From: Caldifarciminota bacterium
Lineage (GTDB): Bacteria > SDB-A
Assembly (NCBI GenBank): GCA_016929715.1
Contig: JAFGIG010000047.1
Span: forward strand, 1-32,870
DNA length: 32,870 bases
Direction of reading: 5' to 3'
Below the pieces are notes generated by a model that worked only from the letters and a program-made list of their open reading frames with translations, did not search any database and was not told the origin of the DNA. The first letter of the stretch is position 1. Each line of letters opens with the position of its first letter. Of this stretch, positions 200 to 32,870 are shown in pieces. Made by a program: the position numbers and the translations under genes.

Positions 200-979
200 T
201 CAGTCCGATGAACCAGTGGTGTCGGAAGGCAGGGAGTCGGGTTCGCTCAAGGTTATCTGGATTGAAATTGTCTGACCTGAATAGACGAGATCCCAGATAA
301 CGCTTGTCCAGACATCGTAAGCGCACTCTTTGAGATGGAGTCCCTCTATTGTAAGATCCCTGCGGATTTTACCTGTGGTGTCGGTGAAAATTTTGTGCAG
401 ATCAATGTAATAAATAGGTTTTTCCGCGTCTAGGCTGTCGACAAGTTCTTTAAGTAGAAGATTCAGAGAATCTATAGACGGATTGAGCCTTGAGTATACC
501 CCGCCGGTAGGAAGGACGCTGTGGACGAAAAGAGAGACGCCGGGCATGGAGTCGTAGATGGTCTTGACGAGAAGCTTGTAGCCGCCGGCTATCTCTGTTG
601 CAGATCTGTTTCTGTCGCCTATGTCGTTTATCCCTATCATGAGAAAAATTTTTGAAGGTTTGAGCTTAAAACAGGATTCCCTGAGGCGCTTTAAGACTCC
701 GCCGTCTCTGTCTATGCCTATCCTGTCTCCTGTTATTCCCCTGTTGTATGAAGTCACTCCGGGAAAGTGCTTTTTCAGATTGTAGGCTTCGATAATAGAA
801 TTTCCCAGAAAAACTACCCCGCCCTGGGAGACAGAGTCGTTTTCGCTCCTGAATCTGATTATCCTCTGCCAGAAAAGGTCTCTCTGGTTCTGGTTGACAA
901 AGACATTGCCCGAGTCATCGGTGACGTCTGAAAAAAGAGATGTGAAGAAAATAAGAAATACGAAGGGGCTAATCTTCAA
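200..979 (-). CDS. Secreted SGNH/GDSL-family hydrolase or acyltransferase
   Basis: This 259-residue protein has a hydrophobic N-terminal signal segment (about 5-17) and then an SGNH fold. Block I is GNSI with the nucleophile Ser61, block II is NRGITGDR (about 79-86) and block III is GIND with Asn118. Block V reads EGLH, so Glu212 stands where the catalytic Asp normally is, with His215. Members hydrolyse or transfer acyl groups on carbohydrates or lipids; substrate cannot be assigned. It is the last gene of a five-gene minus-strand operon and overlaps the upstream SGNH gene by 11 bp. The start is a TTG with an AGGAG about 11 bases upstream; no in-frame ATG precedes the signal segment. The neighbouring MBOAT gene suggests a role in acylation or deacylation of an envelope polymer. 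Confidence 0.8.
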   Translation of the reverse strand: MKISPFVFLIFFTSLFSDVTDDSGNVFVNQNQRDLFWQRIIRFRSENDSVSQGGVVFLGNSIIEAYNLKKHFPGVTSYNRGITGDRIGIDRDGGVLKRLRESCFKLKPSKIFLMIGINDIGDRNRSATEIAGGYKLLVKTIYDSMPGVSLFVHSVLPTGGVYSRLNPSIDSLNLLLKELVDSLDAEKPIYYIDLHKIFTDTTGKIRRDLTIEGLHLKECAYDVWTSVIWDLVYSGQTISIQITLSEPDSLPSDTTGSSD

Positions 980-1976
980 AAGTAAAATCGCTCCTGATTT
1001 TTTCTATGATCTTGTCGGCTATGAGCTGACCTCCCGCCCTTGTCATGTGTATTCCGTCTTTCTCGTCGCGGGCATGGACCTGTCTTCCGCCAACGGTTAA
1101 ATAAGTCGTGTAGTTCCCCGACGCATCTCCGAGAATAGGGACTGTCGAAAAATAATGTGCTCTGGGATTGGCTGCACATACTTCCTGAAAGACGGTGTTC
1201 AGCGACTGCATTCTCGAATTGTATCCCGAGCTTCTCATAGGAGGCATTCCCAGCCAGTAAACTCTCGACGTGTTGGATGTCAAAAGCGCTATGAAGTCCG
1301 TAGCCCTCTGTCTGTAAACCTCAAACCATTCGTCGGTTCCGTATGTGTAAATTTTACCGTCCATTTCGAAGTTCTGGGCGTCGTTTGTTCCCATCATCAC
1401 AATCACAACGTCGTAGTTTTCGTTTGAAAATATCTGCCTTATCTGGGCGGGCCAGTTGTAGAAATCCGGTCTCGTCATTCCGGATGAGACTTTGAAATAT
1501 CTTTTTTGCGTCATATCAGCTAAATCGTCAATGCCTCTTATTAGCATTGTCCCAAGGCCGTCTCCCATCATAGAGTCTCCGAGGAGCAAAATGCGCAGGG
1601 GAGATGAAGAGGAATAGACGACAGCGTGCGTATTGTCCGGCTGGACTGAATTGACAGAAGATGTATTGAACTCATTGATGCCGGGATTTTCCGCCGCGAT
1701 GAAACCCGCTTCCCTCTGTTTGCCCATGGAGAAAAGAAAAGAATTTTTAAGGGCTTTTCTCGGCAAATCGAGTCCTATAGCGGAAGTTCCGAAGGCGAGA
1801 GGTTCTGTGATTGACATGAAAAACTTTCTTGCCGGTCCGACGCTCAATTTTTTTGACCAGTTATAAAGACCTGTAGAATCGAAGAGTATGACAAAAACGA
1901 GACAGACCAAAAGGATTTTAGAGACGGCAGAGAGGTCGTAGAATTTCTCATTTCTGAATTTTTCCATAAAATCCAT
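969..1976 (-). CDS. DUF459-type SGNH protein, membrane anchored
   Basis: The 335-residue product has one N-terminal membrane segment (about 18-32), a linker to about 125, and a complete SGNH domain. Block I is LLGDSM with Ser135, block III is GTND with Asn198, and block V is DGIHM with Asp307 and His310. The layout matches DUF459-type SGNH proteins. By analogy with AlgJ/AlgX, DltD and PatB, such a protein beside an MBOAT acyltransferase often completes acyl transfer to a polymer outside the cytoplasmic membrane. That role is inferred here from gene order. The ATG is preceded by AGGGGGGAAC, a good ribosome site. It starts 8 bp after the MBOAT gene ends and overlaps the following SGNH gene. Confidence 0.82.
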   Translation of the reverse strand: MDFMEKFRNEKFYDLSAVSKILLVCLVFVILFDSTGLYNWSKKLSVGPARKFFMSITEPLAFGTSAIGLDLPRKALKNSFLFSMGKQREAGFIAAENPGINEFNTSSVNSVQPDNTHAVVYSSSSPLRILLLGDSMMGDGLGTMLIRGIDDLADMTQKRYFKVSSGMTRPDFYNWPAQIRQIFSNENYDVVIVMMGTNDAQNFEMDGKIYTYGTDEWFEVYRQRATDFIALLTSNTSRVYWLGMPPMRSSGYNSRMQSLNTVFQEVCAANPRAHYFSTVPILGDASGNYTTYLTVGGRQVHARDEKDGIHMTRAGGQLIADKIIEKIRSDFTFED

Positions 1977-1984
1977 GTTCCCCC

Positions 1985-3397
1985 CTAAAACCTGAAATAT
2001 ATGAAAGGCGCCACTCCTTCGGGCCCGAACGCGCTCACCAGCAATAAAACCAGACCGAGTATTATACCCTGCACCGAGGCGGGCAGTCTAATGAAATTGG
2101 CGCGTATCCAATTGCCCGGAGATGACGGGATGAAGTGCATTGCTATGCCGATTGACACGAGGAAGAAGACGAAAGGGGTCAGGTTAGTTACGGGTAAAGA
2201 CACGTTGGCGAAAGACCGCAGATACTCGTAAGCGAGGGAAAAAGACCTTGCTCTGAAGAATATCCAGCTCAGACATACGAAGTGAAATACGAAAACGGTC
2301 GATGCAATCTGCCATAAAATATTTCTTTTTCTGTCGCCGAATTTGTCTATAAGAAATCTCTCAACTCCGAGACCGAAGCCGTGAAGAGCTCCCCAGAAGA
2401 CAAAATTCCAGGCGGCTCCGTGCCATAAACCGCCTAAAAGCATTGTCAATGTCAGGTTGACGTAAGTTCTGAACTTCCCTTTTTTGGAGCCTCCGAGAGG
2501 TATATATAAATAGTCCCTGAGCCATGTCGAGAGGGAGATATGCCATCTCCGCCAGAAATCCCTTATTGACTGAGCTCTATAGGGATAGTTGAAATTGTCG
2601 GGGAAGAAGTATCCGAGAAGAGAGGCTATGCCTATTGCAATTTCGCTGTAGGCGCTGAAATCACAATAGATTTGAACCGCGTAGCCGTAAACTGCGAAAA
2701 GGGCGTCGAGAGAGGAGAAAGCGGAAGGATTTTCAAATACAGGATCTACAATTTCAGTTGCCAGGTAGTTCGCAATTATGACTTTTTTAAACAAGCCTGC
2801 TGAAATGAGGACAAACGCCCTCGCAGCGGGTATTTTTTTCGGATCGGGCTTCAGAGAAAGCTGAGGAATAAAGTCTTTTGCTCTGACAATGGGTCCTGCG
2901 ACGAGTTGTGGGAAAAACGAGATGAAAAGAAGGACATCGACCACAGATTTTGAAGCGGGGATTTCCTCTCTATAGACATCTATCACGTAACTCATGGCCT
3001 GAAACGTGAAAAAAGATATGCCCACGGGAAGAATTATATTGAGAACGCTGATGCTGGTCCCCAGTCCGACGAATGAAAGGAAATTGTTAAGGGAAGAGGC
3101 AAAAAAACCGTAATACTTGAAAAACCCGAGAATAATGAGATTCCATGTCACAGCTATGCCTATTACAGCTTTTCTGTGGGAGCCGTTTTTCATGTCCGAC
3201 ATGGCAAGCCCGAACATGTAGTTTCCGAACGAGCACATAAAAAGAAGTACAGTAAAACGCGGATCCCACCATCCGTAGAAAATATAACTTGCGACGAGAA
3301 GAACTATCTTTCTCGGCAGGATTCTGTCTTTAAGAAGCCAGCTCGCGGCGAAGACAATGAAGAAAAAGATACCGAATTCTACGGTTGGAAAAAGCAT
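1985..3397 (-). CDS. MBOAT-family O-acyltransferase (AlgI-like)
   Basis: The protein is 470 residues with about ten hydrophobic segments, the usual size for AlgI/PatA/DltB-type MBOAT enzymes. The hallmark region is clear: FNYPYRAQSIRDFWRRWHIS (about 269-288), then WLRDYLYIPLGGSK (292-305), then GGLWHGAAW with the invariant His326. These proteins pass acyl groups, usually acetyl, across the cytoplasmic membrane to a partner acting on a polysaccharide, peptidoglycan or teichoic acid. The partner is probably the DUF459 protein encoded next. The ATG overlaps the esterase stop by one base (TGATG), so translation is probably coupled. The substrate polymer is unknown; no glycan synthase is present in the window. 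Confidence 0.93.
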   Translation of the reverse strand: MLFPTVEFGIFFFIVFAASWLLKDRILPRKIVLLVASYIFYGWWDPRFTVLLFMCSFGNYMFGLAMSDMKNGSHRKAVIGIAVTWNLIILGFFKYYGFFASSLNNFLSFVGLGTSISVLNIILPVGISFFTFQAMSYVIDVYREEIPASKSVVDVLLFISFFPQLVAGPIVRAKDFIPQLSLKPDPKKIPAARAFVLISAGLFKKVIIANYLATEIVDPVFENPSAFSSLDALFAVYGYAVQIYCDFSAYSEIAIGIASLLGYFFPDNFNYPYRAQSIRDFWRRWHISLSTWLRDYLYIPLGGSKKGKFRTYVNLTLTMLLGGLWHGAAWNFVFWGALHGFGLGVERFLIDKFGDRKRNILWQIASTVFVFHFVCLSWIFFRARSFSLAYEYLRSFANVSLPVTNLTPFVFFLVSIGIAMHFIPSSPGNWIRANFIRLPASVQGIILGLVLLLVSAFGPEGVAPFIYFRF

Positions 3398-4362
3398 CAG
3401 TCGCTCTCAGGAAAGAAGAATTGAAGGCATTCGGATATCGCCGGACCCAGAACGCTTATGTGATCGGCAGTAAAGACACTGCACTTAGAGTTCCCTGAAT
3501 TTCCCGATTTACCGAGTTCAAGGCATAGTTCTGCGTGAAATCCGACTCTGCATACTATGTCCTTTTCGGCACTCGCAATATAAATTTTCTCGTTTAGGAA
3601 AGCAACAGAGCCATTTTTTAACGAATAAAGAATATCGAAACCGCCGGATTTGATCTTTTCCAAAAGCATTTCCTCAACGGACAGCTTGCCGCAGTGATAT
3701 TCGAATAATTCATCTGCACCTCTTCCTGTGAAATTCAGAGACATTTCGTCTGAAAGTCTTGTGAAAAAATGTTCAGGTCCGTATAACTCGGGCGAAGCCC
3801 AGACATTTTCTTCCTCTATGTATTTTGTCCAGTAATCGAAGACGTCCGCTGTGACAATTCCCGAAACAGAACCTATATAAGGAAAAATATCCGGATGCCT
3901 CGATCCTATTCTCAGAGCTCCGAAGCCGCCGAGGGAATGGCCTAAAAGGCAGAAAGGACGGGTTTTTGCACCAAGATTTTCCTGCGACCAGCGACTTATC
4001 TCCTCTGTCAGATAAAAGCAGATAAGATCCTCCCAGTTCCCTGCAGTTTCTGAATTGACCCAAACACACGGGTTTTCTCCGAAAGAAGGGTCAATTATTA
4101 CGGATATGAAAGACCTTCCGACAGGGGTGTTTTCAATAATCCTCTCGATGCCGAGAAAACTAAAATACCAATCCGGATTGCCGTCGAATCCCGGCATAAA
4201 GAAAACAACCGGGATTTCGGCGTCAATGCTTTCGGGATATAATATCGAAACCCTGACACTGTCTATGCCGTATTCACCGGCAGGCGGAGTCAGTATAAGA
4301 TCAGCTCTTGATGTTTTCAGAAAAAAACCGTTCATCATGACAGTCATGATAAGATATATCAT
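3397..4362 (-). CDS. Secreted alpha/beta-hydrolase, putative esterase (PF00756-like)
   Basis: The 321-residue protein has a hydrophobic N-terminus (about 1-20) resembling a signal peptide. The nucleophile elbow GHSLGG lies near residue 140, followed by FGALRIGSRHPDIFPYIG, typical of the esterase D/enterochelin-esterase-like family. A candidate acid (the Asp in AEKDIV) and a candidate His (DHIS) follow in the expected order. It would hydrolyse ester bonds outside the cytoplasm. It starts one base after the foldase stop and overlaps the MBOAT gene by one base, so it is in the same transcript. An acyl-removing role on the polymer modified by the MBOAT enzyme is an attractive inference but is not shown by the sequence. 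Confidence 0.78.
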   Translation of the reverse strand: MIYLIMTVMMNGFFLKTSRADLILTPPAGEYGIDSVRVSILYPESIDAEIPVVFFMPGFDGNPDWYFSFLGIERIIENTPVGRSFISVIIDPSFGENPCVWVNSETAGNWEDLICFYLTEEISRWSQENLGAKTRPFCLLGHSLGGFGALRIGSRHPDIFPYIGSVSGIVTADVFDYWTKYIEEENVWASPELYGPEHFFTRLSDEMSLNFTGRGADELFEYHCGKLSVEEMLLEKIKSGGFDILYSLKNGSVAFLNEKIYIASAEKDIVCRVGFHAELCLELGKSGNSGNSKCSVFTADHISVLGPAISECLQFFFPESD

Positions 4363-4363
4363 A

Positions 4364-5992
4364 TCAGTCCTTTTTACTGCCGCCGAACAGGTAATCTATG
4401 AAAGAACAGACAAGGCCGTTGATGCTGAAAGCGACAGAATGTTTGGTTTTTAGTCCAGCTATGAATTCCGCGAAAGTCTTGTCAAGTTTTTCCCTGCGAG
4501 TGTCGTTTTTGAGCCTTATCTGAATACTGTCGAAAGGAGCAGGTTTAGGCGGCTGAACTTCAGTTACCTGAACGAAAATCCATCCGTCGATAGCCTTAAA
4601 GAGTTCCGAAACTTCCCCTTTGTCGAGCTCATTTACTAAAGGATATATAGTCCCCTGCTGATGCCTGCCCCTGTATCCGGCGTCTCCGCCTTTTATCGCA
4701 GTCGGATGATTTGAGTGAAGGCGGGAAAGGGAGTCGAAAGAAAAGCCTTCTGCGATGAGTCTTCTCATGGAATCCGATAGGGAACTGTCGGGATTCATGA
4801 AAATCGAATATCTTATCTGCTCAGGGTATAGATAATCCTCAATGTTATTTTCGTAGAATTCTTTCATTTCATATATGTCAACGAATACTGTGTCTTCAAT
4901 TCTTTTTTTTAGGACATTGTAAAGATGTTCGTTCTGCATGAGCTTGATTTCAGCCCTTACAAAGGGATCGGTTTTAATTTCGTCCTCATAGGGCATCGTG
5001 AACACGTCTTCGGCAATCAGACGCCTTTCTATCTCAAAACGTAAATTAACTGTGTCGCCGAGTCTCGGGAATGTCCCTTTTCTCCTGAAACGAAGAAGCA
5101 TTTCCCCTGCGGTCATCTCTTCGCCGAGATATCTGCAGACCACTCTTGAGGAATCTACGCTCGAGATTTGCGGAAACATCGGAAATGGTATCGTGTCGAA
5201 TTTTGCGCTGTCAGCGGTTGTGAAAAAAAGCATTGTGGATTGTTCGTAGGACGGACGCGCGATTTCAATTGCGTCGAGTATGTTTTTTATCCTGTAATTC
5301 GTCTGCGCGAGAGATGCGATGAACTGAATCCATTCTGCGTTCATTGTATCGGGCAAAATGGGGTCTTTGGTTTTTGTCTCGAGCCTGACAGGCACGACAT
5401 AGAAAGTCGGAAATCTTGTGACTTCTCCAGCTGAATAATCTTCAAGAGAGAAAACGGCTTCTTTCAGAGGATACATTACATTTTCCCAAGAAATTTCTGC
5501 GATTCCCGATATTCTTGGATCCGCGTGTTCAAAGAAAAGCGATTCGGCGTGCTGTGCGAATGAGCTGTCGCCCTTTTTGGGGCTTGTAGAAAGCTCTGAA
5601 TACACTTTTTCTGCAAGGACGGAATCGCTTGTGCAGATGAATATTGCTCTTATGGAATTGCCGCTCATCATGCGGATACTGTCGAGGTATTCGCCGGTCG
5701 GAGTAAAATCCAGGACGCCGTGTTTAACTAGAGCGTGTTTGTAGAGGATTTCCTTTGCAATGGTTTTGAGGGTCAGCGATTCTTCAAGAGCTATGCCGTT
5801 TTCGTATGCTTCAAGGGAAAAATATTTAACTAGTAAAAATCTGCCAAGGTCGTCATCTTTAAGATTTCTGTATGCAAGAACATCTGAAAAAGAAACTGAG
5901 GTGTCCTGTGAAGATGAAAAGAAAAGTTCTGGGGCGGCGCCAGAAACTTTCAGTGTTTGAAATAGTATAAGGGCTGTCAATATTGCTTTCAT
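4364..5992 (-). CDS. Periplasmic parvulin-type peptidyl-prolyl isomerase (PpiC domain)
   Basis: From the chosen ATG the protein is 542 residues. It begins with the signal-peptide-like MKAILTALILFQ, has a long alpha-helical SurA/PrsA-like body, and carries one rotamase domain at about 388-482. There the family pattern is visible as a GFSFDSLSRLHS block, then GGDAGY, then LVNELDKGEVSELFKAIDGW. It should assist folding of exported proteins. An upstream TTG in frame at 6007 would overlap the GGGAGG ribosome site; the ATG at 5992 lies a proper 6-7 bases after it and directly precedes the signal peptide. It is the first gene of the O-acylation operon, behind a promoter at 6060-6088, suggesting a dedicated foldase for secreted products of the operon. 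Confidence 0.88.
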   Translation of the reverse strand: MKAILTALILFQTLKVSGAAPELFFSSSQDTSVSFSDVLAYRNLKDDDLGRFLLVKYFSLEAYENGIALEESLTLKTIAKEILYKHALVKHGVLDFTPTGEYLDSIRMMSGNSIRAIFICTSDSVLAEKVYSELSTSPKKGDSSFAQHAESLFFEHADPRISGIAEISWENVMYPLKEAVFSLEDYSAGEVTRFPTFYVVPVRLETKTKDPILPDTMNAEWIQFIASLAQTNYRIKNILDAIEIARPSYEQSTMLFFTTADSAKFDTIPFPMFPQISSVDSSRVVCRYLGEEMTAGEMLLRFRRKGTFPRLGDTVNLRFEIERRLIAEDVFTMPYEDEIKTDPFVRAEIKLMQNEHLYNVLKKRIEDTVFVDIYEMKEFYENNIEDYLYPEQIRYSIFMNPDSSLSDSMRRLIAEGFSFDSLSRLHSNHPTAIKGGDAGYRGRHQQGTIYPLVNELDKGEVSELFKAIDGWIFVQVTEVQPPKPAPFDSIQIRLKNDTRREKLDKTFAEFIAGLKTKHSVAFSINGLVCSFIDYLFGGSKKD

Positions 5993-6059: not shown

Positions 6060-6088
6060 ATTATATATGACATGGCTGATATTTACAA
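6060..6088 (-). promoter_or_regulatory. Sigma-70 promoter of the envelope O-acylation operon
   Basis: On the minus strand TTGTAA (6088-6083) is followed after exactly 17 bases by a perfect TATAAT (6065-6060). The predicted transcription start is near 6053, giving a leader of about 60 bases before the foldase ATG at 5992. No other good promoter was seen for this operon. It is divergent from the rpsU promoter. Confidence 0.65.
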
Positions 6089-6275: not shown

Positions 6276-6458
6276 ATGTCAGTCGGTGTTAAAGTCAGAG
6301 ACAATGAATCGTTTGAATCGGCGCTCAAGAGGTTTAAGAGGGTTTGCGAACAAGAGAGGATACTGAGCGATTTCAAGAAAAACGAAAGATTTGAAAAACC
6401 AAGCGAAGAAAGAAAGAAGAAAAGCCTTTCTAGCAGGCGCAGAGTTATAAGAAAGTAA
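6276..6458 (+). CDS. rpsU: 30S ribosomal protein S21 (bS21)
   Basis: The 60-residue basic protein matches bS21 along its whole length. It starts SVGVKVRDNESFESALKRFK, continues with an RVCEQ/ILSDF helix and FEKPSEERKKK, and ends in a basic tail. S21 binds the 30S subunit near the 3' end of 16S rRNA and promotes initiation. The GAGGAGGG ribosome site (6257-6264) is unusually far, about 12 bases, from the ATG. It is first in an operon with mutS2, dnaG and rpoD, the classic rpsU-dnaG-rpoD macromolecular-synthesis arrangement with an extra gene. A 6-bp inverted repeat GTAAGC/GCTTAC (6455-6472) covers its stop codon, without a T-run. Confidence 0.95.
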   Translation: MSVGVKVRDNESFESALKRFKRVCEQERILSDFKKNERFEKPSEERKKKSLSSRRRVIRK

Positions 6459-31088: not shown

Positions 31089-32870
31089 TTATTTAGCCAG
31101 AAAAGCTCTGGTTGTCTTTACCCCCTGGGGAGTGCTTATAGTGAAGAAATATGAACCCTGTGCGAATTCCGGCGTAAACTCCAACGTGTAAGTTCCGGGT
31201 TCTCTCGTTCCTTCGAATACGTTTGCTACGTTTCTTCCAGTGATGTCAAAGACGTCTATCGAGACGTTTCCGGCAGAAGCGACCGAGTAGGTTATCCTGA
31301 AATTTCCACCGGCCGCAGATACTGCAAAAGTCTCAGGTCCAAAGTCCCCCTGGACGGGTTCCTCTTCGATACCTGAAGTCCACGAGAGCTTGTCAAACCA
31401 CACACTGTAGATGGCGCTGTTGTAGTTCGTCCACGCTACACAAACTCCGTCGGTTGTGTAGTCGTAGCAGACGCTCGGACCGTAAGAAGCGCTGAGGTTG
31501 GTTCTGTCGTCGTTTATTATGACTGATGTATTCCAGCTGTTGGGGGATGTGATAGAGCCTTGTTTGTATCTTACGTATTCTTCAGACGTGTCGTCCATGC
31601 GGTAGGCTGCCATGAAAGCAGTGCTGTTGTAGTCGACGTAGACAACGGGAAGGAATAGATCGTCGTATATTGAAACCCAGCCGGCGAGGGTCCAGTTGGA
31701 ACCGTTGTCGGTAGAATAGGCGTTGTAGATATGTCCGTAGGATGAAATTGTGTCCTGCTGTCTTACAAGGCACACCCAGTTGCTGTTGTTGTGCGATCCG
31801 GCAATACTGGGTTGGTCTTCGTCGAGGTGGTTGTCGTTGGGAGTGATATAAATTACCGATGACCAGCTGGATCCGCCGTCTGTAGAGGTATAGCCCCTGA
31901 TGTATTCGTCGTAGGAAGTCGGCCAGTTGAAGGGATGAAGCGTGGCGCAGTAAACCAAGTTTATCCCGTCTCCGTTTTCAATGTTAGTTTCTTTGAAGTA
32001 TACTCCATTTCCCGCGGTAAAAATTAAGGTATCTTGTATATCCCAGGTGGCTGCATCTATGTTGTTCGACCTTGCGAATCTCAAGCGGGTCGTGTCAGTT
32101 CCGGTCGTGTTTTCTTCTACCCACGCCGCGTAGATGTACTTTGCGTTGTAGTTGGGACCGTCGTTTGTGACGTAAAAGTAACTTATCGGGTTGTCCTGAT
32201 AACTGCCGCTGGGGGAGCCGGACGAGAAGTTCGTAAGAGTAGCTCCCGGCACGTCGACCCTTATCCACGCTATGTATTGGTTGGAAGTGCTTCTCATGAC
32301 ATAGGACATAATGAGAGTGTCGTCGGCTACGTTCAGTCTTGGATACAGAATGGCATTGGTAGTTACATATTCGTTGCAGACACTCCAGGTCATTCCACCG
32401 TCTGTCGATCTGCTTGTAAGCCTTGTGTAGTTCGGGTTGACATACTGAACAGAAATTGCGTAGAGATGGCCGTTGCTCAAGGAGACGATGTTTCCGCCGC
32501 GAAATCCGTCTCTCGGGTCAATTCTGACGTCGTCACCCCAGAAAGGCGCGTAAGAGGAAGGCTCGTCGTTCAGGTAATCCCTGTTGATCGGTTTTTGTCT
32601 GGTTTCGCCGCCGTAGGGATCGACGAGGGTCGGGTCGTTCTCTATATCTCTGTTTTCTTTCCAGTATTGGTTAATCTGAGCAGAAAGAAAATTTGCCCTC
32701 TCAATGTCGCCGTTTTCTTTTGCCCTTATCATCTCCATGGTCGCATAATCGGCGTCGAAACCGTCGGGAACCGTCACCTGTGCTCTTTCTATCGGCATCG
32801 GCGGAAAGTCTATTTCCCCGTTTATCATCCTTTCGTCGGCTGAGAACATAAGTGTTCCCGCGGCGAGAAG
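31089..32870 (-). CDS. Secreted Asp-box (BNR/sialidase-like) beta-propeller with C-terminal sorting-type domain, 5' end missing
   Basis: The frame stays open to the window edge, and the first visible residues, LLAAGTLMFSA, look like the end of a signal peptide. The true start therefore lies beyond 32870, not at the in-window ATG (32849). About 590 residues are visible. A polar N-terminal part is followed by a beta-propeller with three Asp-box motifs: STDGGMTW, STDGGSSW and STDNGSNW, as in sialidases and other secreted propellers. The last 80 residues form an Ig-like module, with VSIDVFDITGRNV and then ending TTRAFLAK, as in Por-secretion (type IX) or FlgD-like tails. Catalytic sialidase residues were not identified, so enzyme activity is not claimed. 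A strong terminator follows. Confidence 0.82.
   Translation of the reverse strand, partial: LLAAGTLMFSADERMINGEIDFPPMPIERAQVTVPDGFDADYATMEMIRAKENGDIERANFLSAQINQYWKENRDIENDPTLVDPYGGETRQKPINRDYLNDEPSSYAPFWGDDVRIDPRDGFRGGNIVSLSNGHLYAISVQYVNPNYTRLTSRSTDGGMTWSVCNEYVTTNAILYPRLNVADDTLIMSYVMRSTSNQYIAWIRVDVPGATLTNFSSGSPSGSYQDNPISYFYVTNDGPNYNAKYIYAAWVEENTTGTDTTRLRFARSNNIDAATWDIQDTLIFTAGNGVYFKETNIENGDGINLVYCATLHPFNWPTSYDEYIRGYTSTDGGSSWSSVIYITPNDNHLDEDQPSIAGSHNNSNWVCLVRQQDTISSYGHIYNAYSTDNGSNWTLAGWVSIYDDLFLPVVYVDYNSTAFMAAYRMDDTSEEYVRYKQGSITSPNSWNTSVIINDDRTNLSASYGPSVCYDYTTDGVCVAWTNYNSAIYSVWFDKLSWTSGIEEEPVQGDFGPETFAVSAAGGNFRITYSVASAGNVSIDVFDITGRNVANVFEGTREPGTYTLEFTPEFAQGSYFFTISTPQGVKTTRAFLAK

Follow-up and report, generated by a model that had tools for sequence, protein, structure and literature searches.

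The stretch of DNA analyzed here (the window; 32,870 nucleotides, contig JAFGIG010000047.1 of assembly GCA_016929715.1 from a Caldifarciminota bacterium) carries five minus-strand genes at positions 200-5992, which encode, from 5′ to 3′, a PpiC parvulin, a PF00756 esterase, an MBOAT protein, a DUF459 protein, and a second SGNH protein. These genes are probably a 5′-extended operon for peptidoglycan O-acetylation of the OAP type (PatA-PatB-Ape-like), belonging to an uncultured outer-membrane bacterium. The system is thus a variant of OAP, with a known mechanism and an unusual accessory set, whose core has already been described in Neisseria and Campylobacter. The paper that defined the OAP cluster in 2005 reports a fixed succession of genes, with pat followed by ape2 (now patB) and ape1a (PMC1199599). 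The cluster shares with the window the gene order MBOAT-DUF459-SGNH including the further SGNH protein, an MBOAT with a C-terminal FXYXXF motif, and a DUF459/PatB protein with block II Ser/Asn (PMC1199599, PMC6174289, PMC12148441). The window differs in three respects: the SGNH protein encoded by the third gene of this core is not CE3/Ape1-like in sequence, two genes are added at the 5′ end, and the MBOAT tail reads FIYFRF.

The tight packing of the five genes, reported in a first-pass annotation of the window, was borne out: the PpiC and esterase genes are 1 bp apart, the esterase and MBOAT genes overlap by 1 bp, 8 bp separate the MBOAT and DUF459 genes, and the last two genes overlap by 11 bp. 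Purine-rich stretches resembling ribosome-binding sites lie ahead of the starts. All five proteins were assigned to Pfam families above the respective curated cut-offs. The earlier proposal of a single operon for envelope O-acylation that includes esterases and could both add and remove groups is supported.

The DUF459 protein (positions 969-1976, minus strand; DUF459 match 9.1e-61) is a putative PatB-type SGNH O-acyltransferase with an N-terminal membrane anchor. A review equates DUF459 with PatB, a family of enzymes that O-acetylate peptidoglycan (PMC9487903). The protein matches the PatB structures of Neisseria gonorrhoeae (NgPatB; 7tjb, 1.2e-23) and Campylobacter jejuni (CjPatB; 8tlb, 1.7e-20). 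Using the active-site features defined for PatB (PMC12148441), residue mapping placed its catalytic triad at S135-D307-H310, equivalent to Ser133, Asp302, and His305 of NgPatB. The block III oxyanion residue Asn198 corresponds to NgPatB Asn196, and block II carries the transferase-type Ser164 (NgPatB Ser161) in place of Gly. In the hydrophobic wall, Ile304 of NgPatB is kept as Ile309. The protein belongs to the same DUF459 family as PatB; as it scores below the NCBIfam PatB equivalog cut-off, we do not call it a PatB ortholog. In a spread sample of 386 genomes, just two from beyond the phylum gave clear DUF459 matches.

The MBOAT protein (positions 1985-3397, minus strand) matches PF03062 with 108.5 bits against a cut-off of 27 (5.7e-31) and is the only MBOAT in the genome. 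It contains the motifs GGLWHGAAWN, with the WHG histidine at position 326, and DFWRRWHISLS, the latter including the FWRRWH sequence named as a motif of this acyltransferase family (PMC1199599). PatA acetylates the tyrosine of its own C-terminal FXYXXF motif, and PatB then uses this acetyl-tyrosine (PMC12148441). A candidate acyl-shuttle motif of this form, F-I-Y-F-R-F with Tyr467, was read directly from the translation at the extreme C-terminus of the MBOAT (positions 1988-2005, minus strand) and is identical in each of the four phylum genomes available for comparison, which represent two genera of one family. By sequence, the protein comes closest to DltB in both NCBIfam and the PDB (structures at 2e-27); its 174 bits lie below the DltB equivalog cut-off of 375. 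A second, stand-alone DUF459 protein is encoded in each of the four genomes (G000:C72:1666-2310, L103, L107; also L118, L119, L120). Its active site seems complete, with the blocks GDSM, SSGLSRPDF, GAND, and DDGCH, and it may share the single MBOAT.

Relatives of the MBOAT were collected as 80 loci from the GTDB collection, 78 of which end in FXYXXF. In a tree of 82 sequences, in which the PatA proteins of Neisseria and Campylobacter were not among the members, the MBOAT family of the window falls within a clade of 48 (support 100/99). DUF459 is encoded nearby in 42 of these 48, the window's family included; some of the remaining six loci are cut by contig ends. None of the retrieved MBOAT loci outside the clade had a DUF459 match. 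The nearest kin within the clade are metagenome-assembled genomes of Ignavibacteriaceae and Spirochaetales, both with the MBOAT gene followed by the DUF459 gene. In an adjoining large alphaproteobacterial group, which includes Brevundimonas and Parvibaculum, the order is DUF459, another SGNH-like protein, and MBOAT. These loci share the DUF459 partner and the APFIYF tail with the window, and their MBOATs are 48-54% identical in the named genera. They differ from it in the reversed order, the different extra SGNH protein, and the lack of a foldase or PF00756 gene; their arrangement resembles the one in Zymomonas (PMC1199599). Tails in the DUF459-linked clade are mostly APFIYF, unlike those of the remaining MBOATs, and the residues just ahead of the shuttle motif (AP-FIYF; C-termini of L002-L081) largely follow DUF459 partnership across phyla. 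This correlation could help to predict which SGNH protein pairs with a given MBOAT.

The third gene of the core (positions 200-979, minus strand; TTG start; Lipase_GDSL_2 8e-15) occupies the ape1 position and encodes a putative secreted SGNH/GDSL O-acylesterase of 259 residues without an extra module. It does not qualify as an Ape1/CE3 esterase: the PDB matches of its profile are of the sialate O-acetylesterase and platelet-activating factor acetylhydrolase types, and up to an E value of 1 none is named Ape1 or O-acetylpeptidoglycan esterase. The closest solved relative is the Phocaeicola vulgatus sialate 9-O-acetylesterase PvSAE (7pzg/6njc, 6e-25; PMC9063846), with which it shares the GNS block I and the oxyanion Gly and Asn. 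Its active site comprises S61 in block I, G84 and N118 in the oxyanion hole, and E212-H215. In contrast to PvSAE, Glu212 stands for the usual catalytic aspartate (Asp199), a substitution that is invariant in the four genomes, and the protein is encoded within an O-acylation operon. Since it retains the hydrolase-type block II Gly that is lost in PatB, we read it from its sequence as an esterase that would serve in the role of Ape1 without being Ape1.

The new part of the operon is the second esterase and the foldase gene, which are attached to the known core and retained in all four genomes. The PF00756 protein (positions 3397-4362, minus strand; PF00756 (Esterase) 2.9e-12) is a putative secreted alpha/beta-hydrolase esterase. 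Its profile aligns with esterase 8z91 over residues 37-317 (1e-14), the GHSLGG nucleophile motif is intact, and D268 and D300-H301 are conserved; G-H-S-x-G-G and the D/H residues are invariant in the four genomes. It is at the same time the fastest-evolving member of the block (28-55% identity). Single-sequence AlphaFold modeling gave no usable structure for this esterase or for the SGNH protein of the third gene (predicted local distance difference test scores of 38 and 43, respectively). The first gene (positions 4364-5992, minus strand; ATG at 5992 behind GGAGG; Rotamase_2 3e-12) encodes a putative 542-residue PpiC/SurA/PrsA-type parvulin foldase. Inspection by eye suggested a signal peptide, and hence secretion, and revealed no lipobox cysteine. 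A profile of the four foldase sequences matches Cell-binding factor 2 (3rfw, 7e-11) and PrsA (4wo7, 1.5e-10), with alignments that reach beyond the PpiC domain. The foldase had been described as the operon's own, but this is unproven because the genome encodes several other PpiC proteins. There are at least four further PpiC-type genes, with five matches on contig C7 and one weaker match on C28; on C7, several of the PpiC-domain matches stand in tandem (G000:C7:3118-7441). Across the 80 MBOAT loci of other taxa, no match to the foldase, the PF00756 esterase, or the third-gene SGNH protein was present, and no operon of this kind emerged from the literature when O-acetylpeptidoglycan esterase and prolyl isomerase were searched together with patA.

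A comparison of gene order across related genomes, suggested in the first-pass annotation, revealed the five-gene order in four of four phylum genomes. The genome of the window is 2.0 Mb in 142 contigs and 94.7% complete. In the genome from the other genus (G003), the foldase gene is partial because it runs off the contig, and the block is otherwise intact; the genes past its SGNH end differ, so that the block was retained while this flank changed. Protein identity across the four genomes ranges from 28 to 89%. Conservation at this divergence, in four genomes and two genera, indicates that the block is not a chance arrangement. Identities to G003 amount to 71% for the MBOAT, 59% for DUF459, 52% for the SGNH protein, 36% for the foldase, and 28% for the PF00756 esterase, and the MBOAT/DUF459 core is thus the slowest-diverging part of the block.

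Read from sequence, the protein families, catalytic residues, shuttle motif, and conserved order, together with genes for peptidoglycan enzymes and for a family of outer-membrane proteins, suggest the following route. The acyl group, presumably acetyl, would be loaded onto Ser135 of the DUF459 protein and from there reach a hydroxyl of the glycan; the likeliest position is C6 of N-acetylmuramic acid (MurNAc) in peptidoglycan. Removal of the acyl groups would fall to the third-gene SGNH protein and the PF00756 esterase, both predicted to be secreted, such that lytic transglycosylases, whose reaction requires a free MurNAc C6 hydroxyl (PMC1199599), can cut. Escherichia coli is a species whose peptidoglycan is not O-acetylated (PMC6174289). 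The PpiC protein, as a periplasmic foldase, would aid the folding of the secreted proteins, its presumed clients. The genome encodes, as judged by gene presence, transpeptidases (PF00905), three SLT lytic transglycosylases, and Omp85 proteins, and inspection by eye for a linked glycan synthesis locus, another check proposed earlier, revealed no glycan synthesis genes in the operon or the rest of the window. For these reasons we favor peptidoglycan, which is the likeliest substrate, albeit not proven; the initial description of an unknown polymer was over-cautious. One of the two transpeptidase genes (G000:C105:13717-14597; L109, L110) is split over two frames with an internal stop, reflecting either an assembly error or a real disruption.

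Several observations weigh against this assignment. The DUF459 protein scores no more than 101 bits on the NCBIfam PatB model against a cut-off of 580, has Tyr252 where NgPatB has the hydrophobic-wall Leu250, and does not cluster with NgPatB or CjPatB in a DUF459 tree whose deep branches are weakly supported. The MBOAT tail GVAPFIYFRF is unlike the FIYANF and FIYSSF tails of characterized PatA proteins, and the third-gene SGNH protein, with Glu for Asp, is not Ape1-like by sequence. The divergent MBOAT tail would also fit a system in which the same acyl-tyrosine shuttle serves another acceptor, either a lipid-linked glycan or a polysaccharide of the surface or matrix. Such an acceptor would accord with the relationship of the third-gene protein to sialate O-acetylesterases and with the presence of Actinomycetota and Chloroflexota in the DUF459-linked clade, beyond the Gram-negative range given for PatB. 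Nevertheless, the PatB transferase signature is kept in DUF459, peptidoglycan enzymes are present in the genome, and no glycan synthesis gene accompanies the operon in the window, and we regard a different acceptor as rather unlikely. A more elaborate version, a self-contained write-and-erase module whose single transcript supplies the transferase pair, two mutually unrelated esterases, and a foldase of its own, and which would act on a non-peptidoglycan glycan and employ its two esterases for two acyl groups or positions, appears very unlikely.

The third-gene SGNH protein could be a second transferase, comparable to AlgJ/AlgX with AlgI, in an operon that mainly adds groups and has the PF00756 protein as its sole esterase. 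Alginate systems indeed pair two SGNH proteins with one MBOAT (PMC9487903), the alphaproteobacterial relatives likewise have a gene for an additional SGNH-like protein between those for DUF459 and the MBOAT, and Glu212 is unusual; however, G84, the block II Gly that is replaced in PatB, is kept, and the nearest solved relatives are acetylesterases, making a second transferase unlikely. We give appreciable weight, short of an even chance, to a functional unit of MBOAT, DUF459, and SGNH alone, with the foldase and the PF00756 esterase as mere upstream neighbors that have general envelope roles and share the transcript. The far faster divergence of these two proteins from their G003 counterparts relative to the MBOAT and DUF459, their absence from the other MBOAT loci, and the additional PpiC genes of the genome are all in line with such a restricted unit, whereas the 1-bp junctions that join both genes to the core, and their retention in two genera, speak against it.

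Two further systems resemble the putative OAP-type operon in part. Teichoic acid D-alanylation by DltB-DltX-DltD also combines an MBOAT and an SGNH protein with an acyl-tyrosine shuttle. We rejected D-alanylation because the shuttle tyrosine of the window is on the MBOAT itself rather than on a separate DltX, the SGNH partner is DUF459 and not DltD, and dltA and dltC are missing from the operon. Alginate O-acetylation by AlgI/AlgJ/AlgX has one MBOAT and two SGNH proteins, as in the window, but the latter has no alginate genes alongside, and AlgX belongs to an SGNH family other than DUF459.

The combination of genes had initially been considered undescribed. This does not hold for the core, in which DUF459 corresponds to the PatB family and the genes MBOAT-DUF459-SGNH follow the OAP order; the upstream esterase and foldase genes alone are additions. 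The operon would extend the PatAB/OAP logic of cell-wall O-acetylation to a poorly known, uncultured phylum represented here by four genomes, and in its five-gene form the erasing step would fall to enzymes unrelated to Ape1.

Upstream of the PpiC gene lies a candidate sigma-70-type promoter (TTGTAA-17-TATAAT, positions 6060-6088, minus strand), which matches the consensus at 10 of 12 positions, a resemblance that is no proof of a promoter. Beyond it, and outside the system, the divergent rpsU gene for ribosomal protein S21 (positions 6276-6458, plus strand; Ribosomal_S21 4e-20) opens an rpsU-mutS2-dnaG-rpoD run, and divergent mutS2-dnaG-rpoD genes precede the block in G001 and G002 as well. 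In sister genomes, a Usp-like gene and a phosphotransferase system (PTS) EIIA-CitMHS transporter fusion adjoin the operon and converge on it (L105:11812-14246, L104:10696-13079). PADLOC returned no match at the locus, and a role in anti-phage defense was dropped on this ground. No inverted repeat was reported within the first 400 bases of the window. Beside the contig start, positions 60-185 constitute a dispersed repeat, of which a 37-56 bp part occurs in six further genomic copies at 89-95% identity; shorter pieces are also found in the genome, some close to contig ends, and the repeat may lie behind the contig break. At the other end of the window, positions 31089-32849 encode a BNR-repeat-like protein; its C-terminus carries a weak sorting domain of the Por type, which hints at a type IX-like secretion system.

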